NCBI GenBank assembly: GCA_002840355.1
Contig: PHAL01000020.1
Coordinates: forward strand, 1-40,149
DNA: 40,149 nt
Direction: 5' to 3'
Origin: Elusimicrobia bacterium HGW-Elusimicrobia-3
GTDB taxonomy: Bacteria; Elusimicrobiota; Elusimicrobia; Elusimicrobiales; UBA9959
Shown piece by piece: positions 1,816-34,420 of this stretch. The stretch's first letter is position 1. Every line of letters starts with the position of its first letter. The notes below the pieces were generated by a model, which was not told where the DNA came from, made no database searches, and saw nothing but the letters and a program-made list of their open reading frames with translations. The position numbers and the translations under genes were made by a program.

Positions 1816-3249
<1,434 letters not shown>

Positions 3250-3256
3250 TCAAACC

Positions 3257-4159: not shown

Positions 4160-4165
4160 AGTGCC

Positions 4166-12245: not shown

Positions 12246-13433
12246 TCAGATCCGCACCGGCTGGGGGGCGGAAGGCTCGGGGGCGTAGTAGACGGCGGGC
12301 TGTACCGAGCCGCCCTGGCCGGGAGAGTAGATGGCGGGCACCGCTTTGGGGGCGGAGCTCGCGGGCCGGGAGACCTGGCGCGCGGCCTGGTCCAGCGCGG
12401 CCTCGAAGCGGGTAACCGGTATCAGGGCCTGCACTTCGCCTATCAGGGTCACTTCCTCGCCGTCGCCGCCGTCCTGGGCGTAGTAGTTGGCGCGGCCGGG
12501 GGCGTACTGGTAGGGGCGGCGGGGGTCGTTCACCACGGCGCCGCTGGAGGTATTGGAGGCGTAGGCGTAATCGGGGTCGCCGCGCACCAGTATGCCCTCT
12601 ATCTTGTAGGTGTCCAGGTTGAAAACGGGGCTGCCGGAATTGCCGCCGAAGGTGTCGAGGTCGGTCACGAAGTAGCCGTTGGCGTTGAGGCTCCTGACGC
12701 TGGCGCCCGCTTCCTGCACCTTCACGGGCATGCCGCTGGGGTAGCCTATCGCGCCCACCCTGGCGCCGGCTTTGACGGCGGCGCGGCTTATGGCCAGCGG
12801 CACGCGGTTCTGGACGGGCCGGTTCAGGCGGACCAGGGCGTAGTCGGCGCCCTTGCCGTTCACCGCGAAAGTCTGACAGCTGCCGCCGCGGCAGGTGAAG
12901 TGCTCGCCGAAGCCTTCCTTATCCTGCTCGCGCACGTGCTGAACCACCACCTCGGAGCAGCCGTACACGTCCTCGGCCGGTATGGAGGTCGGGGCGGCGC
13001 CGGCGCGGCTGTAGGCGAAACCGAAAGCGAAGAGCACGCTGCCGCAGGGGCCGCCCTTGGGATGCGGGGCCAGGCAGTGGCCGGCCGTCAGCACCAGGTC
13101 TTCGCCCACCAGGACGCCCGAGCAGAAGGCGCCGGAGGGCTGGTCGTTGAAGGTCTCGCCGTCGCGCAGGTTGAACTTCTGCTTAACGTTGAGCTTTTTC
13201 AGATTGTAATTGCCGGTGGCCTCGTCCAGCATCAGGTTCCTGGGGGAGAACAGCGCCACGGTGGACTCGGACAGCATGCGCATGCGCGCGCTGGCCTCGT
13301 AGGCCTCGCGCAGATCGTTGTCGCCATGGTAGGCGGCGGGGGTTACCGAAGGGTCGCCGCTTCCGGCGCGCGCGGCGGAGCCGGCCCCCAGGGCCAGCGT
13401 CAGTGTCATCAGTATGTTCAGCGCGCGTTTCAT
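12246..13433 (-). CDS. Secreted trypsin-like serine protease (S1 family), paralog
   Basis: This 395-residue protein has a signal peptide (MKRALNILMTLTLALGAGSA, then ARA). The triad is His119 in LTAGHC, Asp197 in GADYALVRL and Ser266 in GGNSGSP. Cysteine pairs near the His loop and at residues 181/186 could form disulfides. The C-terminal 60 or so residues are Pro/Ala/Ser-rich and low in complexity. It is first in a two-gene operon, behind a good promoter at 13451-13479 and with an AGGT ribosome site upstream. I chose the ATG at 13433 because the signal peptide begins there. Confidence 0.88.
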   Translation of the reverse strand: MKRALNILMTLTLALGAGSAARAGSGDPSVTPAAYHGDNDLREAYEASARMRMLSESTVALFSPRNLMLDEATGNYNLKKLNVKQKFNLRDGETFNDQPSGAFCSGVLVGEDLVLTAGHCLAPHPKGGPCGSVLFAFGFAYSRAGAAPTSIPAEDVYGCSEVVVQHVREQDKEGFGEHFTCRGGSCQTFAVNGKGADYALVRLNRPVQNRVPLAISRAAVKAGARVGAIGYPSGMPVKVQEAGASVRSLNANGYFVTDLDTFGGNSGSPVFNLDTYKIEGILVRGDPDYAYASNTSSGAVVNDPRRPYQYAPGRANYYAQDGGDGEEVTLIGEVQALIPVTRFEAALDQAARQVSRPASSAPKAVPAIYSPGQGGSVQPAVYYAPEPSAPQPVRI

Positions 13434-13450
13434 AATGTTTACCTATATAT

Positions 13451-13479
13451 ATTATGAAACAAGAGTTGACGAATGTCAA
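13451..13479 (-). promoter_or_regulatory. Sigma-70-type promoter of the protease operon with palindromes
   Basis: On the minus strand TTGACA (13474-13479) and CATAAT (13451-13456) are separated by exactly 17 bases. The -35 lies inside the inverted repeat TTGACATTCGTCAA. Further upstream (13484-13517) are overlapping repeats of TAAAGACC and its complement, including TAGGTCTTTAGACCTA. These could be operators; no regulator is identified. Confidence 0.75.
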
Positions 13480-13534
13480 TCCCTAAAGACCCAGGAAGGA
13501 ATAGGTCTTTAGACCTACGCCAAGCCTTCTTGCA

Positions 13535-13569
13535 AATAAAAACGCCGCCCGTTTTAAGCGGGCGGCGTT
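13535..13569 (-). terminator. Rho-independent terminator of the SWIB gene
   Basis: An 11-bp inverted repeat (13541-13551 with 13559-13569) of GC-rich sequence is followed on the minus strand by TTTTTATTT. It lies 17 bases past the SWIB stop codon. Confidence 0.88.
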
Positions 13570-13586
13570 AACTCGTGATTACCGGC

Positions 13587-13847
13587 TTATTTCGCGTTCT
13601 TGCCGATGATCTTGGCCAGGTCGAACATCGTGACCTGCTTTTTGCCGGCGAACAGCTTCAGCAGCTTCTCGTCAGCGTTGATGTTGCGCTTGTTCTTCTT
13701 GTCCTGCAGGTTGTTCTTCTTGATGTAGGCCCACAGTTTCTTCACGATCTCGGTGCGGGGAACCGGCTTGGCGCCGATTACCGCGGCCAGGGTCTCGTTA
13801 GGGGTGATGGGGGCCATGAACTTCGAGTTTGCTTTTGCAGCGGGCAT
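13587..13847 (-). CDS. SWIB/MDM2-domain protein
   Basis: This 86-residue basic protein is almost wholly a SWIB domain: NETLAAVIGAKPVPRTEIVK, then KLWAYIKKNNLQD, NADEKLLKLFAGKKQVTMFD and a Lys-rich end. SWIB domains occur in eukaryotic chromatin remodelers, and single-domain versions occur in a few bacterial lineages such as Chlamydiae, where a role in nucleoid structure has been suggested. The start at 13847 is fixed by a perfect AGGAGG 7 bases upstream; an in-frame ATG at 13946 lies upstream of the promoter and is rejected. It has its own promoter and terminator, so it is monocistronic. Confidence 0.88.
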   Translation of the reverse strand: MPAAKANSKFMAPITPNETLAAVIGAKPVPRTEIVKKLWAYIKKNNLQDKKNKRNINADEKLLKLFAGKKQVTMFDLAKIIGKNAK

Positions 13848-21147: not shown

Positions 21148-22275
21148 CTATCCCCTTGCCGCCACCAGCAGATCATTGAGCTCTTTTTTTCCTTCCTGAA
21201 AGCGCCTGACGCCGCCAAAAAGTCCGATAAAGGCGAAATACGCGCCCATCACGACTTTGTAGCCGCCTTGCATGAAATACGCCGGCGTATTCCATAGAAG
21301 CCCAAATTCAGTCCAGATATGCCCAATATTCAGCCAGACAAATCGCAGGAAATAGACCGAGAAAGCGACAAAAGCAACGAGGTAAACATAATGCACGGCG
21401 CGCATCCAGCGTTTATGCTTTAGCGCCGAGTAGGTGTCCTTGTAAAGCCAATACCCATCGGTGCGCAGAAGCGGATTTAAATTAAAGAGCATTATAAGCA
21501 TGGTCCACCGCACGGCCTCAGCGGCGGAAGGACTGCCCAACACCACCGCGGCGACAAGCAGCATGAGCGTGTATATTGATTGCAGGATAAATCCGCCGCA
21601 ATCCACTAACGCCCGTTTTTCGAGAGGAAGCCTGTCTACGCCGGAAACATTAGTATAAAAAACAGGGTAGACCAGATATACCGAAAAGCCTATGGGCCGC
21701 AAGCCAATGCCGCTAGTCGCGGCGGCGATGGAATGCCCAAGCTCATGCACCATGCTTCCCAGTAAGACGAGGGCCAGCACCAAAAAGCCTTTGGCGCTAC
21801 CGAAGGCCGCTGCCGGCAACATCCTGTCGCCGCCACCCGCGAACAGCCAAAGCCCCGGCAGCGCGCCGGCCAGCGCTAACCACACCAGCCACGGGAAGAT
21901 CTTTTTGAGTCTCTCCGGAGTCAGCCCGAACAGATTCAGGAAGCGCTCCTGCAACTGAGCGGGAACCAGCCTTATGCTTGGAGAAAACACAGCCCCAAGC
22001 ATTGTCTTCCAGGTCTTTTCCGGCTTTTCGGTCAGCGCTCCGATAGCGAGCAGCTTCTCCAGTATTTTTTCCGGTTCGTTTATACCAAGCCGGGCCAGCG
22101 CCGATGCGTACTCGGGTTTGCGCCCGTTTTGAGGCAGCTGGCCGGCCAACCAGACCGCCTCCTCCGCGACGCTGTAGCAGGACGTATCCGTTATGGCCAG
22201 GAGTTTATCCCCGTATCGCACCGAATACGCCCTCTTTAGCGGGTTCTCATAGGTCTTAGCCGTGGCTTCCACCAT
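21148..22275 (-). CDS. M50-family (site-2 protease-like) membrane peptidase of a peptide-maturation system
   Basis: This 375-residue polytopic protein carries the zinc motif HELGH (residues 177-181) in a transmembrane helix and the second metal motif NPLLRTDGYW (267-276). The N-terminal 85 residues are soluble and look like a small winged-helix, PqqD-like substrate-binding domain (inferred, weak). Five to six further hydrophobic segments follow. Family members such as YydH are encoded beside radical SAM peptide modifiers and are thought to cut or export modified peptides. It begins 2 bases after the stop of the radical SAM gene, so it is co-translated with it. No ABC transporter is encoded nearby, which raises the chance that this protein also handles release. 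Confidence 0.85.
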   Translation of the reverse strand: MVEATAKTYENPLKRAYSVRYGDKLLAITDTSCYSVAEEAVWLAGQLPQNGRKPEYASALARLGINEPEKILEKLLAIGALTEKPEKTWKTMLGAVFSPSIRLVPAQLQERFLNLFGLTPERLKKIFPWLVWLALAGALPGLWLFAGGGDRMLPAAAFGSAKGFLVLALVLLGSMVHELGHSIAAATSGIGLRPIGFSVYLVYPVFYTNVSGVDRLPLEKRALVDCGGFILQSIYTLMLLVAAVVLGSPSAAEAVRWTMLIMLFNLNPLLRTDGYWLYKDTYSALKHKRWMRAVHYVYLVAFVAFSVYFLRFVWLNIGHIWTEFGLLWNTPAYFMQGGYKVVMGAYFAFIGLFGGVRRFQEGKKELNDLLVAARG

Positions 22276-22277
22276 AC

Positions 22278-23693
22278 TTAGCCGTGCGTTGACACCAGGT
22301 CGGGCTCTTTGTCGTCGGAAGCGCCCTCTGCGGGCCGGTTCCGATTCTGGTAGGCCAACTTTACAGACTCGATTATGACGCGCTTCGTGTCGTCACAGGC
22401 GGGCTTGAAGAGGTCCCCCGTCTTAGTGCGGCTCTTAACGCCGCATTGACCGCCGCAAGCCAGGGCCACCGGGCACTTGGCACACTCGTCCAGGTTCGCG
22501 AGGTGCCTTGTCTTGTAGGTCTCATGCAGCGGAAAGAACTCCACTCCAGACTCCGACAAGTGCCCCACGCGGTATTGCGGGTACCCGGCCTCCTCGAAGC
22601 ATCCATAGATATCCCCGAACGGGTCCACCACCACGCTCCGTTGCCGTGTTTGCATGCAGAAGCAGGTACGAGTGAGGCCGAACCCCCGCTTCAGTTTAAA
22701 AAGGTGACTAATCTCGTTGGCGCGCATGCTTACTGGATGCTCCAAGTCTATTCCCAGGTCGAACACCTTGGAGGAGAGGTCCGCCATGTCCACGAAATCG
22801 GTGGCATCCACCTTGGCTATGTTGTCGTGCAGCGGACTTGCGTATATATTGACATACTTGCTCCCAAGTATCCCGCTGTCCTTTAAATCCTTTATCAGGC
22901 GAGGCACGGACTCCATGGTCCTCTTATCAAGATTGAGCCTTATGCTCACCTGCGTCTTCCTCTCCACCATCATACGGATATTTTTCAAGATCTTGTCGTA
23001 GGTCGGCTCGCCGCCAAGAGGCACACGCGACTTATCGTGAAGCTCTTTACTGCCGTCCAGAGAAACCTGAACGCGGCTGACGAAGCCCGGGCCATCCCCG
23101 AAGATGTCCGGCATCAGGTCCACCATCGTGGCATTGCTTATCGCGGTGGACTGCATTCCGTACTTCTTAGCGTAGCCGAGCGTCTTGCGGATTACGGCCT
23201 CATTTGATGGCAGGAAAGGTTCTCCGCCGTAGAACGAAATATTAGAGAAACTCTGCTGGGCACCCTTGATGATGTTGGAGAACTGCTTCTCAAAGATGGT
23301 CTCGACCATGGCCTCACTCATGACGGCCCTGGACTTGTGCGGGCGGTGCTCCTGCTGGTAGCAGTACTTGCATGCCAGGTTACAGTTGTAACTCATCAGC
23401 AGCATGATGCCGCCGCCGCGGTCGTCCTTCCCCATATTGCCATGCATCACACTCACGAATTCCTTGAACCGGACAAGCTCTTCTTCAGGGGAGAGCGTGG
23501 TTATGTGCCCGCGCTTCAGAAGGGTTTCCAACTCTTCGCTGCCCAGAGCATTTATTCTCTCAGCGCTCCGGGAGAGGAAAGCCTCGGCAGGCTGGCCGCT
23601 GACTTCATCCATACAGCTGTTCACCCCGTTAAACAGAAGAACCGAACCGCCGAGGTCAATCACATTAAGATATCGACTGATATTGTAGTTCAT
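22278..23693 (-). CDS. Radical SAM/SPASM peptide-modifying enzyme
   Basis: This 471-residue protein has an N-terminal domain of about 90 residues that may bind the leader peptide. The radical SAM cluster follows at Cys104, Cys108 and Cys111 (CNLACKYC), then SNISFYGGEPF. The C-terminal SPASM domain has cysteines in CFCMQT, IYGCFE, CAKCPVALACGGQCG (404, 407, 413, 417) and near 433, enough for auxiliary 4Fe-4S clusters. SPASM enzymes of this shape install thioether or other crosslinks in Cys-rich peptides. The gene follows the TPR gene by 17 bases with a strong GGGGGGAG ribosome site, and it shares a sigma-54 promoter. The three Cys-rich precursors 1.5-2.5 kb upstream are its likely substrates. 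The bond made is unknown. Confidence 0.92.
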   Translation of the reverse strand: MNYNISRYLNVIDLGGSVLLFNGVNSCMDEVSGQPAEAFLSRSAERINALGSEELETLLKRGHITTLSPEEELVRFKEFVSVMHGNMGKDDRGGGIMLLMSYNCNLACKYCYQQEHRPHKSRAVMSEAMVETIFEKQFSNIIKGAQQSFSNISFYGGEPFLPSNEAVIRKTLGYAKKYGMQSTAISNATMVDLMPDIFGDGPGFVSRVQVSLDGSKELHDKSRVPLGGEPTYDKILKNIRMMVERKTQVSIRLNLDKRTMESVPRLIKDLKDSGILGSKYVNIYASPLHDNIAKVDATDFVDMADLSSKVFDLGIDLEHPVSMRANEISHLFKLKRGFGLTRTCFCMQTRQRSVVVDPFGDIYGCFEEAGYPQYRVGHLSESGVEFFPLHETYKTRHLANLDECAKCPVALACGGQCGVKSRTKTGDLFKPACDDTKRVIIESVKLAYQNRNRPAEGASDDKEPDLVSTHG

Positions 23694-23710: not shown

Positions 23711-24451
23711 TCAATTCCCAGCCTGGCAGGCCTGAGCCTGCTGCCCGTGCTTAAAAAGTATATCACAAATGGCGGGTTTATCCGGTTTTGAGGCCAGCCA
23801 GGCGGAATCCAATCCCCTGGCCTTATCCATCGCCTCGGCGGCCTCCCGGAACTTCCCCAACCGCACCAGCGCACGGCACTTGTTCATGTGCATGAACGCG
23901 TGCACCTTGGGGGCCAGCCGCATGGCTCGATCCATATCGGCCACCGCCTCTTCGTTGCGTCCCATAAACATCGCCGCGGTACCGCGCCCCATGTACATCT
24001 GGGACACGAAAGAAGCATTCTTTTCATAGTACTGTCCGCCGGGGAAGCCGTCGGGATATTTCTTCTGGAAAGTGCGGATGGCCTCATCGTAGTTTTTATA
24101 GGAGGCGGGAAAGTCCTTCTTCCAAAAACTAATGCCACCGCGCATATAGCTGAAGGCGTGCGGCTGCTCTTTAAGTATCTCGGGATTTTCTTTCTCCAGG
24201 GTCTCCAACGCTTTTTGAGACGCGTCCGGGTCTCGCTGCGGAGAATTTACAGCGCGGATCATCTGCTGCCTGCGCGATTCAAAAAGCAGGCGCCGAATCT
24301 TTTCGGAGGTGCTTTCAACGTCGCTGCCAAATGAGGAAGAATCTATCTCCATCGGGATGGCCAGCTCTTGCGGCACAGTTTGTCCCACGGAATCATTGAC
24401 CGCGGCCCCGGCCGGCACAACTGCCATCAGGATTATTATCAGATATTTCAT
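23711..24451 (-). CDS. Exported TPR protein, first gene of the maturation operon
   Basis: This 246-residue protein starts with a signal peptide (MKYLIIILMAVVPAGAA). From about residue 95 it contains at least three tetratricopeptide repeats (YMRGGISFWKKDFPASYKNY, MYMGRGTAAMFMGRNEEAVA, HMNKCRALVRLGKFREAAEA), a fold that binds proteins or peptides. An AAGGAG lies 7 bases before the ATG, and a sigma-54 promoter about 42 bases upstream of the start drives this gene. Sitting in front of the radical SAM and M50 genes, it may hold the precursor or product in the periplasm; this is inference. Confidence 0.82.
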   Translation of the reverse strand: MKYLIIILMAVVPAGAAVNDSVGQTVPQELAIPMEIDSSSFGSDVESTSEKIRRLLFESRRQQMIRAVNSPQRDPDASQKALETLEKENPEILKEQPHAFSYMRGGISFWKKDFPASYKNYDEAIRTFQKKYPDGFPGGQYYEKNASFVSQMYMGRGTAAMFMGRNEEAVADMDRAMRLAPKVHAFMHMNKCRALVRLGKFREAAEAMDKARGLDSAWLASKPDKPAICDILFKHGQQAQACQAGN

Positions 24452-24804: not shown

Positions 24805-25062
24805 TTATCTTCCTACTCCTGTCTGATGAAATCGGATATAGGGCTGCGAAGCAAAAGCCCCGACCCCGATCAAAAAGCCCAGGTCATACCAGCGACCATT
24901 ATTGTTGGTCTCCCATATGGCCACTTTTGCGTTAAAGAGGCTGATGATGAACGTTATTACGGCTATAAAACCATGCCACAGGCCACCCAGAAAACCCGCA
25001 GGTTTCGCCCCCTGAAGCTTATATTTTGAATTTGGTCCCGGTATGGAAAATATGTTCGCCAC
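24805..25062 (-). CDS. Conserved two-helix small membrane protein
   Basis: This 85-residue protein has a short polar N-terminus, a helix with GGLWHGFIAVITFIISLFN, then ETNNNGRWYDLGFLIG leading into a second hydrophobic stretch. The WHG and NNNG-WYD-GFL pattern looks like a widespread small-protein family of unknown function. It starts with a GTG preceded by GGGG, and an extended -10 promoter (TGATATAAT at 25095-25103) lies just upstream. It sits between precursors and maturation operon, so immunity or membrane-targeting is possible, but nothing shows it. Confidence 0.72.
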   Translation of the reverse strand: MANIFSIPGPNSKYKLQGAKPAGFLGGLWHGFIAVITFIISLFNAKVAIWETNNNGRWYDLGFLIGVGAFASQPYIRFHQTGVGR

Positions 25063-25226: not shown

Positions 25227-25493
25227 TCAAGTCACAGGCCGGCAGTTATTGGAAGGGCAGACCGTAAAGGGACGGCAGTTTATGTAACCGGTAGGACCAA
25301 CGCAGTCGCAGGTATCGTTGCAGTTGCCGCACGTGAGATCGATAAGACAGATATCATGCGGGCAAGTGTTGTTTCCTTTATCTATGGAGGAAACCATTGA
25401 GACCAGCGCCTCGAATTCCATGCGGTCCGGCAATTTCTCCAGAGTAAGAACCGCGCCGTCAGTCAGATTTAAGGCTTTTATTATGCTGTTCAT
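25227..25493 (-). CDS. Cys-rich RiPP precursor peptide 1
   Basis: This 88-residue peptide has a conserved leader (residues 1-38) and a core with nine cysteines (44, 49, 55, 58, 62, 64, 73, 79, 84), none of which are in the leader. Leader features shared with its two paralogs are GAVLTLEK at 13-20 and DR-hydrophobic-EFEA at 23-28, ending at a Lys-Gly (39-40). The core begins CPHDICLIDLTCGNC and contains YINCRPF. An AAGGAG lies 12 bases before the ATG. It has its own sigma-54 promoter at 25556-25571. The nearby radical SAM/SPASM enzyme is the likely modifier and the M50 protein the likely maturation protease; both are inferred from context. Confidence 0.85.
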   Translation of the reverse strand: MNSIIKALNLTDGAVLTLEKLPDRMEFEALVSMVSSIDKGNNTCPHDICLIDLTCGNCNDTCDCVGPTGYINCRPFTVCPSNNCRPVT

Positions 25494-25555
25494 TTGTTAT
25501 CTTCGCTCCTTGATTGACCGCTAGATCACATCAGCCACGCTCGCATTACGTTCAG

Positions 25556-25571
25556 AGCAATATTAATGCCA
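25556..25571 (-). promoter_or_regulatory. Sigma-54 promoter of precursor 1
   Basis: On the minus strand TGGCAT-TAATA-TTGCT lies immediately after the stop of precursor 2. The predicted start is near 25545, giving a leader of about 50 bases. No palindromic activator site is close; the nearest is at 26341, 770 bp upstream. Confidence 0.82.
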
Positions 25572-25576
25572 GACTG

Positions 25577-25798
25577 TTATTTGTACGGGTGACAATTAAT
25601 GTACCGGGGGTGGCACTGTTCGTCAAGGCAGACAGTGCATACAATGTCGATCAAGCAAGGATCAGGATTGGTGCCTTTATTAGCCTCCCCCTGGCCGGCC
25701 ATAATCAGAATTGCCTCGAACTCCATCCTGTCCTCAAGTTTCTCCAGCGTAAGCACGGCGCCTTCGTTAAGATTCAGTGATTTGATGATACTATTCAT
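25577..25798 (-). CDS. Cys-rich RiPP precursor peptide 2
   Basis: This 73-residue peptide has a leader almost identical to its paralogs (GAVLTLEK, DRMEFEA) ending at Lys41-Gly42. A short core with five cysteines follows, in the pattern CLIDIVCTVC then CHPRYINCHPYK. YINC-aromatic is shared with precursor 1. A GGAGG lies 8 bases upstream. No sigma-54 site precedes it, so it is probably read through from the promoter of precursor 3. Confidence 0.85.
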   Translation of the reverse strand: MNSIIKSLNLNEGAVLTLEKLEDRMEFEAILIMAGQGEANKGTNPDPCLIDIVCTVCLDEQCHPRYINCHPYK

Positions 25799-25914
25799 TT
25801 ATTTTTCCTCCGCTGTTTTTTCCATGGCCTGACCACCAACAAAAGTATTCAGGCTAACTTGCATACCGCTTTCCCTACTGGCGGCGGCTTAAATCGCCTC
25901 CCGGCAACACCAGG

Positions 25915-26157
25915 TCAAGGGTGTGCTTTATTCGGACAGGCCAAACCGTATGACGAACAGTCGGTAAGGCAGATAGTACAGAGTGACGAACAGTCGGGGC
26001 ATACAGTACACTCAATCTTAATCGCACAAGCGCCTTTTTCACCTGTTCCCTGGCCGAGCATAACAGCCAGCGCTTCAAACTCTATCCGGTCCGGCATCTT
26101 CTCCAAGGTAAGAACCGCACCCTCTGTCAGATTTAGTGCCGTAATAATATTATTCAT
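25915..26157 (-). CDS. Cys-rich RiPP precursor peptide 3
   Basis: This 80-residue peptide is the first of three tandem precursors. Its leader (GAVLTLEK, then DRIEFEA) ends at Lys41-Gly42, and the core has eight cysteines beginning ACAIKIECTVCPDC. The common core motif in all three is C-x-I-x-[IL]-x-C-x-x-C (CLIDLTC, CLIDIVC, CAIKIEC). A GGAG lies about 9 bases before the ATG. It is preceded by the sigma-54 promoter at 26224-26239. Confidence 0.85.
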   Translation of the reverse strand: MNNIITALNLTEGAVLTLEKMPDRIEFEALAVMLGQGTGEKGACAIKIECTVCPDCSSLCTICLTDCSSYGLACPNKAHP

Positions 26158-26223: not shown

Positions 26224-26239
26224 TGCAATTTCCATGCCA
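26224..26239 (-). promoter_or_regulatory. Sigma-54 promoter of precursor 3 (and probably precursor 2)
   Basis: On the minus strand TGGCATGGAAATTGCA fits the consensus most closely of the four sites (the base after TGGCA is T rather than C). The predicted start is near 26213, about 55 bases upstream of the precursor 3 ATG. Confidence 0.9.
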
Positions 26240-26429: not shown

Positions 26430-28106
26430 CTACTGCCAGGGGGGTTCTTTGCCGTTGACTTTCAGCCAGGGGAGGTCGGCGAACTTCTCCGCGCCGTGGC
26501 CGGTGGCCATGGTGAGGTCGGTGAAGCCGCGCCCGTGCAGATCTTTGGCTATATCTTCGCCTTTCACGCCGTCGCCCAGTTCGGAGTCTATATAGACGGG
26601 AATGTCGCGCGGCAGGGTTTCGGCGGCGGCGGAGAATTCTTCGGCGGTCTTGAAGGCCTTCAGGTCGGCGCCGGCGGCACGGGCGGCCATGCGCCAGTTC
26701 ATGTGCACCAGCAGATCGTCGTCCAGCAGCACGGCGCGCAGGCCGGCGGCGGGCTTGGCCGCGGCCGGCAGCTCCATAATTACGCTCGTGCCCTTGCCGG
26801 GCGCGGATTCAATGCGCAGGCTGCCGCCCCAGCTCTCGGCGGAAGTCCTGGCATGGTAGAGGCCCAGGCCGGTGCCGCCGGCTTTGCCGTGCGTCTCGCC
26901 CTTAGCGCCCAGCCTGCCCAGTATTTCCGCCGGTATGCCCTTACCGTCGTCTTTTACCTCTATCAGAACTTTGCCGTCCGTGGCCGCCAGCCGCACCGCC
27001 ACGGTGCCGGGGCCGGCGAAGGCCTCTACCGAGTTGTTTACCAGATTGGAAATTATGCGCTGCAGCTCTTTCGGGTCCACCGCGGCCTTCACGCCGTCGG
27101 CGTCGGAGTAAAACTCTATCTTCACGCCGGCCCTGTCCTTGTGCTGAATGCGCTTCTCGGCCAGCACCTGCTCAATGAGGCCGGCAAGCGCGCAGGTTTC
27201 CGGCCTGGCGGCCGCGGCGCCTGGCGCGCGGTAACGTTGCAGCAAATCATCCGCTATGCCCTGCATGCGGGCTATGGAGCCGTCTACAAGCGTGCGCTTC
27301 TCCTCGGGTAGGGCCAAGCCTTTCGCCGCGGCCCCCAGCGCCGCCAGGGGCGAGCGTATGTCGTGCGCCACCTGCGCGGCCATGTCGGAGACGGCCTTAC
27401 TGACGGCCAGTTCGCTCTCCAGCCTGGCCGCCTGGCCCAGTGCGTCGCTCATGCGCGCGGTCATCTGCGCGAACGGCGTGCCGATGATGCCGGCCGGCAG
27501 GCTGGCTATGTTCTTCTTGATCGAATCGCGGATTATATCGCCTTGGCCGGAATCGGTTATGGAGTTAATCTCGTTGACCGACCGCTCTATGGCCAGCAGC
27601 GTCTGTATGGCGCCCATGTTGGAGAGTATCAGCAGCCCCAGGAAAAAGAACACCACGGTGACGAACAGCACGTAGTTCTGCATGAACACGGCCGCGTTCA
27701 CGTCCACCAGGTCTATCACATATTCCAGCCGGCCCAACTCGGCGCCGTTCGAGATGAAGGGGACGCTTTTATTAAGCTGCGCGCGGGGCCTGTCGTAGAG
27801 GTTGCCGACGATGGCTTCTTTGAATATCCAGCGGCTGCCTTCAAATTGCACTGGATGGAAGGTGATGCGCTTGATATTCTCGTTCTTTATGCGCCACATG
27901 ATCCGTTGCGTTTCGAAGACATCTCCCTCAAGAAAGGCCTTCTCGAAATAGGCCGCGTTCTGCCGCATGGCGGTCAGCAATTTGTCGTCCGCCACGCGTA
28001 TGGCCGAAAAAGCAGAAAAAGCCTGCCAGAAGGCGATAAAAACAAGCACCGCCAGCGCGTAGTGCCGCCAGTTGTAAATCAGTATCCGACCAAATAGCTT
28101 CAACAT
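26430..28106 (-). CDS. Hybrid sensor histidine kinase with C-terminal receiver
   Basis: This 558-residue protein has two transmembrane helices (about 16-36 and 143-163) flanking an extracytoplasmic sensor domain of about 105 residues. A linker follows, then a HisKA domain with His248 (VAHDIRSPLAAL) and a catalytic ATPase domain: N box near 354-358, DDGKGIP near 386-392, GTGLGL near 411-416. A receiver-like domain runs from about residue 455 with Asp507 as the likely phosphate acceptor (VYIDSEL). Its ATG overlaps the stop of the OppA-like lipoprotein gene, so the two are coupled. No DNA-binding output is encoded nearby. Given the sigma-54 sites around it, an NtrC-like partner outside the window is likely (inference). 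Base composition is native, unlike the genes upstream. Confidence 0.9.
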   Translation of the reverse strand: MLKLFGRILIYNWRHYALAVLVFIAFWQAFSAFSAIRVADDKLLTAMRQNAAYFEKAFLEGDVFETQRIMWRIKNENIKRITFHPVQFEGSRWIFKEAIVGNLYDRPRAQLNKSVPFISNGAELGRLEYVIDLVDVNAAVFMQNYVLFVTVVFFFLGLLILSNMGAIQTLLAIERSVNEINSITDSGQGDIIRDSIKKNIASLPAGIIGTPFAQMTARMSDALGQAARLESELAVSKAVSDMAAQVAHDIRSPLAALGAAAKGLALPEEKRTLVDGSIARMQGIADDLLQRYRAPGAAAARPETCALAGLIEQVLAEKRIQHKDRAGVKIEFYSDADGVKAAVDPKELQRIISNLVNNSVEAFAGPGTVAVRLAATDGKVLIEVKDDGKGIPAEILGRLGAKGETHGKAGGTGLGLYHARTSAESWGGSLRIESAPGKGTSVIMELPAAAKPAAGLRAVLLDDDLLVHMNWRMAARAAGADLKAFKTAEEFSAAAETLPRDIPVYIDSELGDGVKGEDIAKDLHGRGFTDLTMATGHGAEKFADLPWLKVNGKEPPWQ

Positions 28107-29527
28107 CTCAACTCCGAAACCACAGGGAACTCGAGGAATCCTTTGCCCACATTAAGATTTATTATTTCCCGAGGATACCACAATACTTTTTTATTCTGAT
28201 AAAGCGGCAGCACCAGACCTTCCTCTTCAAACTCCTTTATTATTTCTTTAGCGAGTGCCTCTTTTTTTTCGGGATTGTCCTCAAGGAGAAGTCTCTTATA
28301 ATTCGCGGCTATTTCCCGTGGCTCAAAATCCAGATAACCTATATCCTTTATGGTATAGAACAAGAAATCACTTAACTCCGGACGCATCGTATTCATTATT
28401 ATAGGAACGAGTGAATATGGGCGGTTTGGTTTATGCAAGCGTGCCACTAATTTTGCCGGCTCCCAATTTACCACAGTCAACGGGATCCCCGTTTCTTTCC
28501 GGATCTTTTTGGCGAATTCAGCCATTTCCGCGTAATTATCCCTGCGCCAATTTGCGAAAAGAATTTCTCCCGTCTCGCTGCGCCTCATTCGCTTGCCATC
28601 GCAGACCTGCCGGGGCTTTCCGGCTCTCGCCCCCGGAACTCCCAGAGGCAGGACATTACCTATATCACCGAACTCAGTGGGACCAGGAAAGAATGCTTTT
28701 CTAAGCTCAGCCACATTCAGGCAATTATAAACCCTTAGTCGAAGTTCCCGGTCCGGAATATTAAGAACAAGACTTCCGACCGTAAGCTCCACATTAACGA
28801 ACGGGACGTACTCTTTTTTAACCCATTCTGGAATATCCCCTGAATTTACCATGTTGAAATCCGCTATATCCCTGCTCTGCAGTCTTGGATCCGTCTTTCC
28901 TTTGTACTCATATATGACCACCTTGTTGTAGCCGTTAGAAATTGGGGTTTTTCGCTCTAGGACAAGTTTATCCGCAGTTAAAGACTTGACAGAAAACTGC
29001 CCAAGCCCATCCTCAATCCCGCCACCGGTGTCGATAGTGGGAGCATTTGAGTAAGATGTCAGATATCCCAAATACCCTTTTCTTGAGGATTTAAATTTCA
29101 CAACGACACAGGAGCCATTTTCACCTATTAAGACTTCCGGAGTATATTTTCTCGTGATGGACACAACGTGTTCATAGAAAGACCTGAGGGTTAATCGGGC
29201 TTTATTGTTAAACTTAAGCGTTGTATCCGGACAGAATGAATACTCAGTATAATCGACGCTCCTGTGCCATTGTTTTAATATCTGCGACGTATAGTTTTGG
29301 CCATCACTCTGCCGGAAAATGGGCTCATGCGTCTGGATTAAAACATAGTAAACCGCAGTTTGTTTCGCGTTCTTTGTGGAAACCGAATCCGGAACAACCG
29401 ACAGAACCCCCCACTCACGCTGTTTAGAGCATCCTGAAAGAAATAAACACAAAAACGCCGCCGACAATAGTCCGCACGCAAAGAACCGATTGGCGAATAA
29501 AGTTTTACGTAAAGAGTGTTTCTGCAT
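28100..29527 (-). CDS. OppA-like solute-binding lipoprotein (SBP family 5)
   Basis: This 475-residue exported protein has a long signal sequence and a lipobox LSGC at residues 30-33, so it is anchored at Cys33. Segments such as HEPIFRQSDGQNYTSQILKQ (residues 69-88), the DTTLKFNNKARLT region and the C-terminal EEGLVLPLYQNKKVLWYPRE are typical of oligopeptide/nickel-binding proteins (SBP family 5). No Opp permease or ATPase genes accompany it, so uptake is unlikely. It overlaps the upstream radical SAM gene by 23 bases and its stop overlaps the kinase's start. A receptor role, delivering a peptide signal to the kinase, fits. Confidence 0.85.
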   Translation of the reverse strand: MQKHSLRKTLFANRFFACGLLSAAFLCLFLSGCSKQREWGVLSVVPDSVSTKNAKQTAVYYVLIQTHEPIFRQSDGQNYTSQILKQWHRSVDYTEYSFCPDTTLKFNNKARLTLRSFYEHVVSITRKYTPEVLIGENGSCVVVKFKSSRKGYLGYLTSYSNAPTIDTGGGIEDGLGQFSVKSLTADKLVLERKTPISNGYNKVVIYEYKGKTDPRLQSRDIADFNMVNSGDIPEWVKKEYVPFVNVELTVGSLVLNIPDRELRLRVYNCLNVAELRKAFFPGPTEFGDIGNVLPLGVPGARAGKPRQVCDGKRMRRSETGEILFANWRRDNYAEMAEFAKKIRKETGIPLTVVNWEPAKLVARLHKPNRPYSLVPIIMNTMRPELSDFLFYTIKDIGYLDFEPREIAANYKRLLLEDNPEKKEALAKEIIKEFEEEGLVLPLYQNKKVLWYPREIINLNVGKGFLEFPVVSELRC

Positions 29528-30377
29528 TTTTCCCCAAAAAGAGGTACGAGCACAAAGTACACGGGTCGGAATGAATCGGTTCCAGGCTGGTTTCCGGAAC
29601 CTTTAAAAATTTCGCTATTCCCTTAAAAGTTTTACCGGTAATAAGCCTATAAAAAAGGCTCTCCATATGCCCCTGCAAAGTAGGGTGCGAAAACACTTTC
29701 TTTTTATCCCCCAGCACCAGTGAAGAACAGCATACGCTGAACCCGCACCCCCCGAGATACATCATCTTGCCTATTCTTGGACATTTTTTTCCAAGCACCC
29801 CCTCATCGAACGACGGGTGTTTATAGCCAAGCAAATTCCTGGCAGCTGCGCCGACCGGCAGCACCTTTTGGATACCGACGCGGAATGATCCAATCTTTTT
29901 CAATTCCGCCACAAGCGCAACATCGAGCGGATTTGAAACACAGAACGACACGCTGAAATCAATTCCCAGTTCTTTGCACGCCTGAGAGATGTTGGCTATG
30001 TTGTTAATCGGCAAGAATTCGGCATGATAGCGGTCATAAGAGACCTGCACGCTTGTAAGCCGGATAAATGACTTAAGTGTCTTTATCGCCTTTCCAAGAC
30101 TATCTCCAAAGTGCCCGTTAGTCGTCATCCGGACCCGGAACCCGGACAGACCTGGAAGTCCCCTCAGAATCTTGTTGGCTTTTGCTACATACAACGTCGG
30201 TTCTCCGCCGGCAAGCAAAACGGCCTTGACCCCAAATTCCATTATAGTGTCACGGATAAGGCCGATTTCTTTTGGTGACAGCTCGTGGGGAGCCTGGGAC
30301 GCTGTCGCGCAATGGCGGCATCGGAAATTACACTTTTCTCCCAGTGTAATGCCCAATTCGCGGACACTTGCGCTCAT
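29505..30377 (-). CDS. Short radical SAM enzyme 1
   Basis: This 290-residue protein has the cluster motif at Cys16, Cys20 and Cys23 (CNFRCRHC) and GGEPT a little further on. A C-terminal region has conserved cysteines (KKCPRI, GGCGFSVCC, DPCTLC) that could hold an auxiliary cluster, shorter than a SPASM domain. It is a paralog of the enzyme at 30836-31714, with motifs at identical positions. It follows the 68-residue peptide gene by 27 bases. No good ribosome site is seen, so translational coupling to the peptide gene is possible. Confidence 0.85.
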   Translation of the reverse strand: MSASVRELGITLGEKCNFRCRHCATASQAPHELSPKEIGLIRDTIMEFGVKAVLLAGGEPTLYVAKANKILRGLPGLSGFRVRMTTNGHFGDSLGKAIKTLKSFIRLTSVQVSYDRYHAEFLPINNIANISQACKELGIDFSVSFCVSNPLDVALVAELKKIGSFRVGIQKVLPVGAAARNLLGYKHPSFDEGVLGKKCPRIGKMMYLGGCGFSVCCSSLVLGDKKKVFSHPTLQGHMESLFYRLITGKTFKGIAKFLKVPETSLEPIHSDPCTLCSYLFLGKNAETLFT

Positions 30378-30404
30378 TAATAATTTGAGGAGGCCAAAAA
30401 CTCT

Positions 30405-30611
30405 CTAGGCGTTCTTGTTGTTATTATTCCCGCGAAGAATATCCCCAGAGCCATCGCAGACAATGATGTTGCTGTTGGACATTTTCGCTACCGAGAAAAG
30501 CGATTCTTTTTCGTTGCCGGAAAGAGAAAGCACATATTTGGTCACGTTTGCGGCCGAGAAAAGCCCGAGAGATACCAGGAAAGCCGCCACTATCTTGTCA
30601 GTATTAGTCAT
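30405..30611 (-). CDS. 68-residue candidate precursor or signalling peptide
   Basis: This 68-residue peptide has a hydrophobic stretch near the N-terminus (AAFLVSLGLFSAANVTKYVL), a polar middle with a single Cys (NIIVCDGSGD) and an Asn-rich end (NNNNKNA). It resembles neither the Cys-rich leaders nor a family I know. It is the first gene behind a sigma-70-type promoter, with an AGGGGG ribosome site, just upstream of radical SAM enzyme 1. That position, and the lack of any other small ORF nearby, make it the likely substrate of that enzyme. It might instead be a small membrane protein. Confidence 0.6.
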   Translation of the reverse strand: MTNTDKIVAAFLVSLGLFSAANVTKYVLSLSGNEKESLFSVAKMSNSNIIVCDGSGDILRGNNNNKNA

Positions 30612-30634
30612 TTATTTTTCCCCCTAACCCATAT

Positions 30635-30663
30635 ATTTTACCACTTTTAGGACTTTTCAGCAA
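30635..30663 (-). promoter_or_regulatory. Sigma-70-type promoter of the peptide-radical SAM-lipoprotein-kinase operon
   Basis: On the minus strand TTGCTG (30658-30663) and TAAAAT (30635-30640) are separated by 17 bases, with TG one base before the -10 (extended -10). It sits just after the upstream terminator, so this operon starts independently of sigma-54. Confidence 0.75.
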
Positions 30664-30672
30664 TTTGCGAAT

Positions 30673-30707
30673 AAAAAAAGGGAAAGCAAATATTACTTTG
30701 CTTTCCC
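30673..30707 (-). terminator. Rho-independent terminator of the tldDE-radical SAM operon
   Basis: An 11-bp repeat GGGAAAGCAAA (30680-30690 with 30697-30707) with a 6-base loop is followed on the minus strand by seven T. It ends the operon of TldD, TldE and radical SAM enzyme 2, 128 bases past the last stop codon. Confidence 0.9.
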
Positions 30708-30835
30708 TGGATACATCCGGTTAAGGCCGGATCGTGGATACTCTGGGGCCGATTCCCCAAATTACAAGGATATGTGACAATTATAGGATAAGAGAAAATG
30801 CCTGGGACCGAAAGGGCCCTTGGGGCCCTATTTGA

Positions 30836-31714
30836 TTACCCCAAAGACCCAGACGAGCAGCACCGGCCGATATGCCGGCACAAATTGCACGCCAAAGAAT
30901 GCTCCGGGCGTAACGTGGCCCTATCAATCCCGAATTTATCCAATAACCCGCCGAAGGTGTACTGCCTCATCGTCTTATGAAAATCGCTTTCAAGCAGTTC
31001 TCCCAGCGTTGCAAATGTTTTTTGTCCCATTTTGCCAGCCTGGGACCCGGCGGGCAGATTAAGGTCGCACAACGCAAAACCTCTTCCGCTCAAGTATACC
31101 GGCTTCTTCAAGTTTGGGCAACTTCGGCCGAGAACCTCCGGCTCAAAGGCGGGGAAGTTGTAACTGATGGCGTTGCTCTCCGCAGCCCCGGCAGATATAA
31201 CTTTCTGAATAACCACAGAAAAATCACCGACAGCCCGAAGTTTTGAAACAAGCAAAAGATCCAAGGGGGACTCTATGACCATATTTACGCTGAATTCCAC
31301 GCCAATATTACTGCACGCCAAAAAAAGATGCCCTACATTTTCAAAGGGCAGGAATTTAGCGTGCCATTTATCATAGGACAGCTGAACCTTACTCAGATGC
31401 TCTATCCTTTTCAAGGTTGCTTCAGCGACTTCAACATTTTTTGCAAAACTCCCGTTAGTGGTAATCGTAATAAAAATCTTTTCAGGGTTTTTTATTCCTC
31501 GCAAAAGATTATTGATCACAGGAATATGCAGCGTGGGCTCCCCTCCTGCGATAATTATTGATCCGATCTTGTTCTGGGCCAAGGTCTCCGCAAGTACGCT
31601 GATTTCGGCGCCAGAAAGCGTATCGCTCAGCTTTGGAACAATCAGGCAGTGGGCACAGGAAAAATTGCACCGATATCCGGGGAGCACCCCTAACTCTTCA
31701 ATTTCTTTAGCCAT
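30836..31714 (-). CDS. Short radical SAM enzyme 2
   Basis: This 292-residue protein is a paralog of the enzyme at 29505-30377. The cluster cysteines are again at 16, 20 and 23 (CNFSCAHC), followed by GGEPT, and the C-terminal cysteines are at SCPNLK, GFALCDL and CNLCRH plus CC near the end. I chose the ATG at 31714 because it gives the same N-terminus as enzyme 1 and does not overlap the TldE gene; an upstream ATG at 31786 would overlap it by 40 bases. It is the last gene of the operon with TldD and TldE. Confidence 0.82.
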   Translation of the reverse strand: MAKEIEELGVLPGYRCNFSCAHCLIVPKLSDTLSGAEISVLAETLAQNKIGSIIIAGGEPTLHIPVINNLLRGIKNPEKIFITITTNGSFAKNVEVAEATLKRIEHLSKVQLSYDKWHAKFLPFENVGHLFLACSNIGVEFSVNMVIESPLDLLLVSKLRAVGDFSVVIQKVISAGAAESNAISYNFPAFEPEVLGRSCPNLKKPVYLSGRGFALCDLNLPAGSQAGKMGQKTFATLGELLESDFHKTMRQYTFGGLLDKFGIDRATLRPEHSLACNLCRHIGRCCSSGSLG

Positions 31715-31746
31715 ATTTCCAGCAACAGGCAGGCTACAGTCCCAAT

Positions 31747-33042
31747 TTACTTTCCGGAAACAACTGCCCCAGAAAAGGAGATCCATGGAAACTCTGACCT
31801 ACCAAGATTTACCCTTTCGGAGGAAATACCGTTAATACGCTTAAGCATATCCGGAATGTTTCCTGAAACCATTGTTTCAGATATTGGATAACGTATTTTG
31901 CCGTTCTCAATGTAAAAACTATTCTTTGCTACTCCGGAAAAATCTCCAGCTTCACTAGGGGCTGCTCCTGAAAACCTGGGAATCAAAAGACCTTTTTTCA
32001 CCTTTCTAATCAAATCCACAAGCCTCTCGCTTCCGGGATCAATGGTTAGACAACCGCCGTCATTTGCTGCGCGTGTCAGCCCGCTCTTCCTCGCGCCATA
32101 AGAATCAAGCAGGAAGCTCTTCAGCATCCCTTTCTCAACAATAACCGTATTCGCCACCTTGTATCCGTCTTGTGTAAAATAATACCCGTCAGACATCTCG
32201 TGAGAAAGGGGAACCGACCGCAATGTCAGATTCTCGCAGGCTATCTTTTTTCCGCATTTATTCCTGTAAACACTTGTCCCGGGAATTATCATTTTTGAAG
32301 ACAACGCCTGCCCACAGACAAACTCAACGAAGTAGTCAAGGCAGTGAGGCATCACTACTATATCCCCGCTGAATTTACCTTTAAGCGGAGAAGGGTGGGT
32401 ATGTCTTTCGGCGTGCTGAAAAAGCACGCCAAGCGATCCGCACTGCATAAGCGGCCGGCTTAGATCCGGCAATCCAACAGAGAAGTAATTTATCGAAGAC
32501 GATTTGCCGTTATCCTGTGCGGCAAAGTTCACGGATAGTTTGTAAGCCCCGTAAACTGAAACCATATCCACACCGTCCGAGTTTAATACTCTTTCGCTTT
32601 TTTTTGTAAATTCCAGCGCCGCGTCGCGGATCCTTATTTTGGGATATTGCTTGCGGGTTTCCTTAAGAAATTCCAGGACACGGCTACACATCTTTTCCTT
32701 GTCAGGCAAAATTAGCCCATTGGAAAACCTTTGCGCTGGCTGCCGGGCTGCGATATCCCAGGACTTATCGGGCAAGGCTGCCTTGGAGGCGGCGACAGCC
32801 GCTTTCGCCCCTGCCGCTATATCTCCCGGCACCGTACCACTCACGGACACAACCCCCCTGCGGCCATTATTGACCACCTCCAGCCGTACGCTTGAGCTGC
32901 ACATTGTCCGCAATAAGGACAACTCTCCGATTTCAACATTCAGCTCGTGTTTTTCGATATCGGTAAAATAGCACTGCGCTTTTTTCGCTCCGGCTCCAAG
33001 CAGCTCGCGCAGGCAGAATTCGGGAAAGTCCTGTATAAGCAT
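31747..33042 (-). CDS. TldE/PmbA-like metallopeptidase subunit
   Basis: This 431-residue protein belongs to the TldE/PmbA family (U62), which pairs with TldD as a heterodimer and lacks the zinc motif. The N-terminal half has the fold seen in AVAASKAALPDKSWDIAARQ; the C-terminal half includes GDIVVMPHCLDYFVEFVCGQ and SFLLDSYGARKSGLTRAAND. It starts one base after the TldD stop. In other bacteria TldD/TldE cut leader peptides or degrade unfolded modified peptides (microcin B17, CcdA). Confidence 0.85.
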   Translation of the reverse strand: MLIQDFPEFCLRELLGAGAKKAQCYFTDIEKHELNVEIGELSLLRTMCSSSVRLEVVNNGRRGVVSVSGTVPGDIAAGAKAAVAASKAALPDKSWDIAARQPAQRFSNGLILPDKEKMCSRVLEFLKETRKQYPKIRIRDAALEFTKKSERVLNSDGVDMVSVYGAYKLSVNFAAQDNGKSSSINYFSVGLPDLSRPLMQCGSLGVLFQHAERHTHPSPLKGKFSGDIVVMPHCLDYFVEFVCGQALSSKMIIPGTSVYRNKCGKKIACENLTLRSVPLSHEMSDGYYFTQDGYKVANTVIVEKGMLKSFLLDSYGARKSGLTRAANDGGCLTIDPGSERLVDLIRKVKKGLLIPRFSGAAPSEAGDFSGVAKNSFYIENGKIRYPISETMVSGNIPDMLKRINGISSERVNLGRSEFPWISFSGAVVSGK

Positions 33043-33043
33043 T

Positions 33044-34420
33044 TCACTTGCCCCCGATATTAACCACGCATTTTATCGCCGGGCCGCCGATGCTTACCGG
33101 AATCGACTGCTTTTTACCGCACATGCCGGAGCAATCCCAAAGGATCTTGTCGGAAACCATTGAAACAGTTTTGAGCATTTCGTAGGCCACGCCAGAAACG
33201 GCGGTGTCATTTATTGCTTTGCCCAGCTTTCCATTTTTAATTTCGTAGCCCAAGGAGATCCCGAACATAAATTCGCTGGTTATGTCAGCCTGGCCATTGC
33301 TCGCCTGGATCAGGTAATAGCCGTCCTTGACGGAAGCTATCATGTCCTCCACCCGGCTTTTTCCCGGCAACACGGCGGTATTCCGCATTCGCACTATGGG
33401 CTCATCCGAGAAGGAGTAGGCCCTGGCGTTGCCGGTCGGGTGCATTTTGAAATAGGCGGCCGACGCGCGACTATGCATATAGGATTTAAGTACCCCTTTG
33501 TCGATGATGGTAACGTCTTCCGCCCTAGTGCCCTCATCGTCCACATGCACCGGGACGTTACACGGTTTCCCTTCATATGTGTGGGCAAGGTCAACCAAAG
33601 TAACGAGGGGACTCGCAACGGCCTTGTTTAAAAGATTTCCTGCGACAGAGCCGAAACGAACATTATCAGCCTCCGCAGTGTGGCCAATGGCCTCATGCGC
33701 GAGCATAGCGGTAACATCCGAAGCGAGAACGCATTCCGATTTACCGGATCTTGCAGACACGCATTCCGACTTTTTCATCAGATTCAAATACAGCTGATCC
33801 AACTCCCCGAAAAGATCAGATGGCTGCGGAAAGACATCCTCGATATGCCCCAACCTGGCTATTAAAGACCCAAGATTCACCAATTTCCCTTTCCTGTCGG
33901 TTGAGATACTGATAAAAGAAGTCGTCCTGGGGACCAAAGAGTAGGCTTCGGAGCCAAACGAGGTTATAAGGCTTTTTTCCATATCCAAAGCGCTGATATT
34001 AACGCTTCGGCTTTTTAACCATTTAAATTTAGACAGATAGCCGTCTATCTCTTTTGCGAATTCTATCTGTTCTTTTTGTGTCCGCCTCTTCTTCTTTGTC
34101 GAATAGTCGCGGCATGAAGTTGCCGGGGAAGCGTGCGGTCTTATAGCCCGCTTATCCAGAACGGAGCTCAAAGATCTGGCGTTTTTAGCCGCTGCTGCAA
34201 TAGCTCTTTTTACATCTTCAGGATCAGTGCCCTGTATCGCGGTAAAACCCCAAGCGCCCGCCCGGCAGACCCTTGCAGAAATCCCGCGAGAAGAAGATGC
34301 TTCGTTTGTCATGAGGCTACCGTTCAAAAGACTGAGCCTAGAAGAACGGTTTTCCTGCATCCGCAATTCTGTATGCCCGCTGAACAGCGCCGCGTATTTT
34401 TGTAGGTTTTTTTCAATCAT
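33044..34420 (-). CDS. tldD: TldD-like zinc metallopeptidase
   Basis: This 458-residue protein has the zinc motif HEAIGH (residues 242-247) in the form HExxxH typical of TldD, and a late Cys (451, in AIKCVVNIGG) as further ligand. With TldE it forms a protease for small peptides and RiPP leaders. A possible -10 (TACAAT, 34445-34450) lies upstream without a clear -35. Its low-GC composition and its place with radical SAM enzyme 2 suggest it serves the peptide system rather than general housekeeping. Confidence 0.88.
   Translation of the reverse strand: MIEKNLQKYAALFSGHTELRMQENRSSRLSLLNGSLMTNEASSSRGISARVCRAGAWGFTAIQGTDPEDVKRAIAAAAKNARSLSSVLDKRAIRPHASPATSCRDYSTKKKRRTQKEQIEFAKEIDGYLSKFKWLKSRSVNISALDMEKSLITSFGSEAYSLVPRTTSFISISTDRKGKLVNLGSLIARLGHIEDVFPQPSDLFGELDQLYLNLMKKSECVSARSGKSECVLASDVTAMLAHEAIGHTAEADNVRFGSVAGNLLNKAVASPLVTLVDLAHTYEGKPCNVPVHVDDEGTRAEDVTIIDKGVLKSYMHSRASAAYFKMHPTGNARAYSFSDEPIVRMRNTAVLPGKSRVEDMIASVKDGYYLIQASNGQADITSEFMFGISLGYEIKNGKLGKAINDTAVSGVAYEMLKTVSMVSDKILWDCSGMCGKKQSIPVSIGGPAIKCVVNIGGK

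Follow-up and report, generated by a model that had tools for sequence, protein, structure and literature searches.

The SCIFF peptides and other ranthipeptides (CteA-CteB, PapA-PapB) are made from precursors in which a Cys-rich core follows a leader, and their SPASM-type maturases carry an N-terminal RRE. Epipeptide (EpeXEP) and daptide loci encode an M50/HExxH intramembrane protease for leader removal. In the epipeptide system, the M50 protease EpeP has been proposed both to cleave and to export the product, and M50 proteases also act on the scaffold peptides of pearlins (PMC10885120). Our literature searches found no such RiPP system for Elusimicrobia, and nothing relevant on TIGR04463, TigE or a radical SAM enzyme of Lutispora. 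Here we describe a locus on contig PHAL01000020.1 of Elusimicrobia bacterium HGW-Elusimicrobia-3 (the window: the complete analyzed stretch of 40,149 nucleotides) that combines leader-bearing, Cys-rich peptides with a SPASM enzyme and an M50 protease. These peptides are very probably the precursors of a new RiPP family, because their leader matches no known one, the adjacent enzymes form an orthologous clade, and the enzyme scores below every NCBIfam equivalog cut-off.

Three tandem precursors and their leader family

The candidate precursors are encoded by three ORFs:

25915-26157, minus strand: P3, 80 aa, 8 Cys; leader MNNIITALNLTEGAVLTLEKMPDRIEFEAL followed by a Cys-rich core (leader profile E 4.7e-28)
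25577-25798, minus strand: P2, 73 aa, 5 Cys (leader profile E 8.1e-28)
25227-25493, minus strand: P1, 88 aa, 9 Cys (leader profile E 2.7e-28)

Each starts with ATG behind a purine-rich ribosome-binding site, as read from the sequence. A preliminary description of this DNA had listed three neighboring ORFs of 88, 73 and 80 residues with a fixed leader and completely different cores. We recovered the same ORFs, and the leader claim holds as well, since the first 30 residues are common to all three peptides with pairwise identities of 83, 83 and 73%. The claim about the cores stands for their Cys numbers (9, 5 and 8) and their low identity (28, 21 and 34% of the longer core), but it overlooks several short modules. 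The motifs C-L-I-D-[LI]-x-C and Y-I-N-C-[RH]-P-[FY] are common to P1 and P2, and C-T-V-C to P2 and P3. The tail module of P1 (CDCxGPxGYIxCRPF) is found again in relatives from other genomes in the form C-D-C-x-G-P-x-G-Y-I-x-C-x-P-[YF]. This recurrence indicates that the cores reuse modules. With P1 as the query, a genome-wide search returned just P1, P2 and P3 (E 3e-58, 3e-18 and 2e-12), and the values for the two paralogues exclude chance likeness.

The leader had also been described as unlike known families. This was confirmed by HMM comparison of P1-P3 with Pfam and NCBIfam (including NHLP, SCIFF, nif11 and lanthipeptide models), which gave no match to E = 1 save one chance Pfam match at E 0.2. 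We refer to the family as the LTLEK-leader family, with the leader consensus MNxxxIIKSLNLTxGEVLTLEKAxDRMEFEAL. A profile of this leader identified 35 distinct precursors and is matched in 15 of the 341 genomes sampled from the Elusimicrobia phylum. It also matches metagenome-assembled contigs binned as Holophagaceae, Oligoflexia and Hydrogenedentota, and more weakly peptides from bacterium UASB270 and from cultured Lutispora thermophila. The lone contigs from foreign bins may reflect mis-binning; Lutispora is an isolate.

Across the 35 precursors, Cys makes up 0.3% of the leaders and 12.8% of the cores. Every core contains at least two Cys and the number ranges up to 13; Cys and Gly are the only residues that occur in all of them, and the cores are also rich in Asp, Pro and Gly. 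Tyr at Cys+3 and Asp or Asn at Cys+1 are enriched, an observation that is descriptive only because many of the cores are related. Several core types can be recognized: some are Cys-rich sequences with CxCxGPxGYIxCxP[YF], others carry CxCN repeats or a Pro-rich tail (PPVPDPTPVP), and those of Lutispora have CDKI repeats. Distant members, from Lutispora and UASB270, carry regular Cys repeats (CDKICDKVCD and CDSDNCDSDSC), and some cores (L031, L041, L072) are proline-rich with few Cys. With Cys numbers from 2 to 13 and proline-rich cores of low Cys content, a single uniform cross-link pattern is not evident.

The maturase, the protease and their predicted activities

Downstream of the precursors follow four genes:

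24805-25062, minus strand: small membrane-protein ORF, 85 aa, GTG start, between P1 and the TPR gene
23711-24451, minus strand: TPR protein, 246 aa, probable signal peptide (assigned by Pfam TPR and synteny)
22278-23693, minus strand: radical SAM/SPASM maturase, 471 aa, with CX3CX2C, SPASM cysteines and an RRE-like N-terminal domain
21148-22275, minus strand: M50 (site-2-type) intramembrane metalloprotease, 375 aa, with a PqqD/RRE-like N-terminal domain

The CX3CX2C motif of the maturase (C104, C108, C111) is invariant in 14 homologues, and the Pfam Radical_SAM model scores 49 bits against a cut-off of 29.5. The seven SPASM cysteines (C346-X13-G-X4-C365, C404X2C407X5C413X3C417 and C433) are likewise all invariant in the homologues, and the Pfam SPASM model reaches 14.8 against a cut-off of 21.5. 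In an AlphaFold model of the enzyme (pTM 0.79) the N-terminal domain is predicted to have the β-β-β-α-α-α order of an RRE (strands 9-13, 17-22 and 28-32; helices 34-41, 44-48 and 52-61; pLDDT ~90), and in this model it aligns with CteB, itself RRE-bearing. CteB is also the best PDB match of the enzyme, both by structure (5WGG, Foldseek E 2.9e-17) and by sequence (E 1.8e-22). From these features we infer that the leader would dock on the RRE-like domain of the adjacent enzyme.

Conservation of the locus ties this enzyme to the leader. Orthologues in Elusimicrobia are 45-69% identical to the window enzyme, the enzyme gene lies directly downstream of LTLEK precursors in ~23 loci, and the order precursor(s)-(TPR)-radical SAM-M50 is kept in ~20. 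Among 101 related genomes, 13 contain both leader and enzyme, 2 the enzyme alone, 1 the leader alone and 85 neither (Fisher p = 1.8e-13); the exceptions are mostly contig breaks or fragments. The precursor-adjacent enzymes, from Elusimicrobia to Lutispora, form a single clade to the exclusion of other SPASM maturases (support 100/100). The earlier suggestion that one modifying system serves all three peptides is borne out for the SPASM enzyme by this co-occurrence and by the adjacency of the genes, and tandem precursors would then allow several products to be made by one enzyme set.

The TPR gene lies between precursor and enzyme genes in 14 related loci, which points to a putative cassette accessory. 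The small ORF is probably not a member of the cassette: one other homologue was found in 61 genomes, and it is encoded elsewhere in its genome.

The same conservation bears on a reading in which P1-P3 are unmodified metal-binding or structural proteins and the enzyme has its target elsewhere. High and variable Cys content and CxC and CxxxC spacings do resemble those of metal-binding peptides. However, a fixed and nearly Cys-free leader, hypervariable cores and an adjacent radical SAM clade with an RRE-like domain all speak for substrates of an enzyme, and metallothionein-type proteins need neither a leader nor an M50 protease. We therefore regard this reading as very unlikely.

As for the chemistry, the SPASM enzyme would cross-link core Cys, most probably through thioether bonds with residues close by, in the manner of ranthipeptides. 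By analogy, we favor thioethers as the main product with moderate confidence, and they are the likeliest chemistry. Alternatively, the same RiPP system may produce C-C or C-O cross-links, epimerized residues or cyclopropyl groups, with the Cys left for disulfides or metal binding. This tentative alternative draws on the second structural match of the enzyme, TigE (8VPO), a cyclopropyl-forming enzyme, and on the presence of SuiB (Lys-Trp C-C cross-link) among the structural matches. The abundance of Asp, Pro and Gly, the residues enriched near Cys, and the cores with just 2 Cys would also fit. On the other hand, the strong Cys enrichment of cores over leaders, with Cys and Gly as the sole universal core residues, argues for thioethers, as does the fact that the nearest enzyme models are maturases of thioether or Cys peptides (TIGR04463, PapB, CefB, CteB).

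In the protease, the HExGH motif (H177ELGH181) and N265-x2-P268-x4-D273 (N265LNPLLRTD273) are invariant in 14 homologues, and the Pfam Peptidase_M50 score of 26.7 is slightly below the cut-off of 27.2. The membrane part of its model resembles the M. jannaschii S2P (probability 0.97), a weak match with no Foldseek E < 0.001. The predicted N-terminal domain consists of three strands and three helices, and the RRE folds of McbB (microcin) and PqqD appear lower among the weak matches of the model. Profile comparison of the RRE-like N-termini of the maturase and the protease detected no relatedness (probability 1.4%) and gave no support for homology of the two domains. The M50 gene usually lies downstream of the enzyme gene; it is absent beside the UASB270 enzyme. 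Given the roles of M50 enzymes in epipeptide and pearlin systems, this protein is likely to be the leader protease of the LTLEK family. After the cross-linking step, the protease, which has an RRE-like domain of its own, would remove the leader in or at the membrane and might also release the product, as has been proposed for EpeP. The LTLEK cassette contains no dedicated exporter.

Probable sigma-54 promoters and the upstream sm68 cassette

Three -24/-12 promoter motifs punctuate the cassette:

26224-26239, minus strand: sigma-54 motif TGGCATGGAAATTGCA, 66 bp before P3
25556-25571, minus strand: sigma-54 motif TGGCATTAATATTGCT, 62 bp before P1
24505-24520, minus strand: sigma-54 motif TGGCACAATAATTGCT, 53 bp before the TPR-radical SAM-M50 genes

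The exact consensus TGGCAYNNNNNTTGCW (TGGCAY-N5-TTGCW) occurs nine times in the 2.88-Mb genome, against one occurrence of the reversed control. Three of these nine sites fall within the LTLEK cassette; by our arithmetic, the random odds of finding three of nine within one given 5-kb stretch are ~4e-7. Upstream regions of related precursors show the same pattern, with 20 of 30 scoring at least 14.5 of 16.5 for the consensus (shuffled mean ~12.3), and 19 of these 20 sites lie 37-96 bp ahead of the precursor start. No recognizable site precedes the precursors of L030, L038, L039, L084, L086 or Lutispora. Sigma-70-like promoters and terminators occur in the region at chance level.

The genome contains two rpoN-type genes (Sigma54_DBD 58.6 and 51.4 bits, cut-off 22.8), one of which has an exact sigma-54 site just upstream. 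Near LTLEK or sm68 cassettes, relatives encode NtrC-type regulators and a compact RpoN paralogue of 350 aa that is itself preceded by a sigma-54 site. This paralogue is present at L025, L145, L163, L167, L176 and L178, and Sigma54_DBD was the only domain recognized in the four proteins tested (L025, L145, L167, L178). To judge from these motifs, sigma-54 control of the LTLEK cassette is well supported. With such promoters ahead of P3, of P1 and of the TPR-enzyme-protease genes, the cassette would be a co-regulated unit that an NtrC-type activator switches on. In related genomes, sigma-54 sites (L164 2992, L166 9215, L176 11383, L146 8344, L147 10443) also precede genes for a secreted-protein family that starts like MKK..LIA...A.AxEIKVDFDGK.

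Upstream of the precursors lies a second gene set:

26430-34420, minus strand: sm68 cassette (TldD, TldE, radical SAM, sm68, second radical SAM, SBP5-like lipoprotein, histidine kinase)
30836-31786 and 29505-30377, same strand as the precursors and within 10 kb of them: epimerase-like radical SAM enzymes (EpeE/YydG-like noted for the second)
30702-30772, minus strand: 2'-dG-II riboswitch (Rfam RF03165; 84.6 bits, cut-off 60) upstream of the sm68 gene
28100-29527, minus strand: SBP5-like lipoprotein, cassette partner of the histidine kinase
26430-28106, minus strand: histidine kinase, 558 aa, apparently hybrid with a degenerate receiver-like C-terminus

The sm68 gene encodes a 68-aa membrane-anchored peptide and is preceded by the 2'-dG-II riboswitch in 12 other loci (L145, L164-L166, L170-L173, L175-L178). 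The SBP5-like lipoprotein is present in 31 of the 341 genomes of the phylum. Most of 16 further loci that we opened combine sm68, enzyme, lipoprotein and kinase, and most lack LTLEK precursors; judged by synteny, the sm68 cassette is conserved independently of the LTLEK cassette. The two adjoin in three genomes (window, L145, L149), and the gene order at L145 is that of the window (TldD-TldE-sm68-rSAM-lipoprotein-kinase-precursor). Another 2'-dG-II riboswitch in the genome of the window (C57:10505-10575, L199) lies upstream of an ORF that by eye is putatively YcaO-like.

This arrangement raises the question of whether the epimerase-like enzymes, rather than the SPASM enzyme, act on P1-P3. All genes are on one strand within 10 kb, and the LTLEK precursor of L145 comes after the epimerase cassette without an adjoining SPASM enzyme. 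In most of the 16 loci, however, the epimerase-like enzyme adjoins its own peptide sm68, mostly with no LTLEK gene nearby, whereas LTLEK precursors adjoin the SPASM enzyme in ~23 loci. We consider the epimerase-like enzymes most improbable as the modifying enzymes and retain the SPASM enzyme in this role.

In the window and at L034, L035 and L145, the LTLEK precursor genes have a histidine kinase of one family immediately upstream. As a member of the LTLEK cassette it was rejected, since locus comparison places it primarily with sm68 and the lipoprotein. From its composition, the sm68 cassette resembles a peptide signal paired with a dedicated sensor, and it may regulate RiPP production. A link from peptide sensing to LTLEK production is attractive, and we infer it from the gene arrangement. 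A complete two-tier relay, in which riboswitch-controlled sm68, altered by an epimerase-like enzyme, would act through the lipoprotein and hybrid kinase on an NtrC-type activator and compact RpoN to induce LTLEK peptides, is speculative and on balance unlikely; if true, one RiPP would regulate the production of another in this uncultured lineage. With the sm68 cassette, 2'-dG-II riboswitches also acquire a group of downstream genes that recurs among loci.

The LTLEK products themselves would be secreted peptides for communication or competition. That they are intercellular signals rather than bacteriocins, with a peptide-sensing two-component system driving sigma-54, is possible but doubtful. 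The kinase just upstream of precursors, the NtrC-type regulators and self-regulated compact RpoN near related cassettes, and the agr genes that flank the Lutispora locus are consistent with this idea. Yet a product whose synthesis responds to a signal need not be a signal itself, and no LTLEK receptor was identified.

Sister loci and relation to known systems

The cultured relative Lutispora thermophila DSM 19022 (L098) encodes three LTLEK-type precursors with CDKICDKVCD repeats, a SPASM radical SAM enzyme and an M50 protease. Its flanking agr-type genes code for a LytTR regulator, a GHKL kinase and AgrB, and an AgrD-like ORF is also present. Upstream of the radical SAM gene, the distant relatives L095, L097 and L098 carry a 557-621-aa protein in place of the TPR protein; this protein is weakly M42 aminopeptidase-like and is a possible second trimming protease. 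L097 (GWD2_63_28, 3180-4178) encodes four tandem precursors that have the leader xxIIESVEFLxxxDLxVAELDKRLSF as well as a C-terminal SAVRG in common, and its enzyme is 31% identical to the window enzyme. At L184 (G058, 12287-13802), related Cys-free peptides (EMLNExNxAVKELExRVYFEALPLLDAS..., ending in VLGVRG) lie beside an M50 protease and a different, ~600-aa protein that is like the radical SAM protein of L097 in size and position. Next to both sister families lie M50 proteases of the same type and a protein of 585-600 aa, which in L097 is a radical SAM protein. Sister leaders, some of them on Cys-free peptides, beside the same M50 type suggest that leader and protease may serve several chemistries.

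We hold the model as a whole, that is, LTLEK-leader RiPPs with SPASM cross-linking, M50 cleavage and sigma-54 expression, with high confidence. The precursors, their leader family, synteny, phylogeny and the catalytic and promoter motifs are read from sequence, and leader-RRE binding, thioether formation, M50 cleavage and the biological role are predictions. The known RiPPs would be extended by a family whose leader is distinct, whose radical SAM enzymes lie as one clade outside all curated equivalogs, and which keeps a tight protease partnership. The Lutispora isolate makes this family testable, and the sigma-54 promoters suggest what turns the peptides on.

No NCBIfam equivalog model reaches its cut-off on the enzyme. 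The best is TIGR04463, whose name (rSAM_vs_C_rich) implies a Cys-rich target peptide, and at 140.3 against 525 bits the enzyme is not a member. Scores for the ranthipeptide models (PapB, SCIFF/CteB) are 121.7 against 340 (NF047865) and 90.4 against 425 (TIGR03974). CefB is the best model for the enzymes of Lutispora and UASB270, whose cores share regular Cys with the Cys-every-fifth (CefB) and CXXX-repeat systems; the window cores, in contrast, are irregularly spaced, and all enzymes score far below the CefB and CXXX-repeat cut-offs (~127 of 600; 61 of 350). The protease reaches 43 of 300 for the daptide model and 38 of 225 for LiaK/YydH. A pearlin reading was rejected because the cluster contains no PEARL enzyme: none of ten neighboring proteins matches this LanB-like family.

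By analogy, the LTLEK system would work much like a ranthipeptide system while scoring below the curated ranthipeptide models. Unlike SCIFF/ranthipeptides, it has an unrelated leader, and its cores contain 2-13 Cys rather than six in forty-five. Its main enzyme is of the SPASM type, in contrast to the epimerase of the epipeptide and daptide loci with which it shares an intramembrane protease, and this M50 protease and the sigma-54 promoters set the LTLEK cassette apart from the SCIFF/ranthipeptides.
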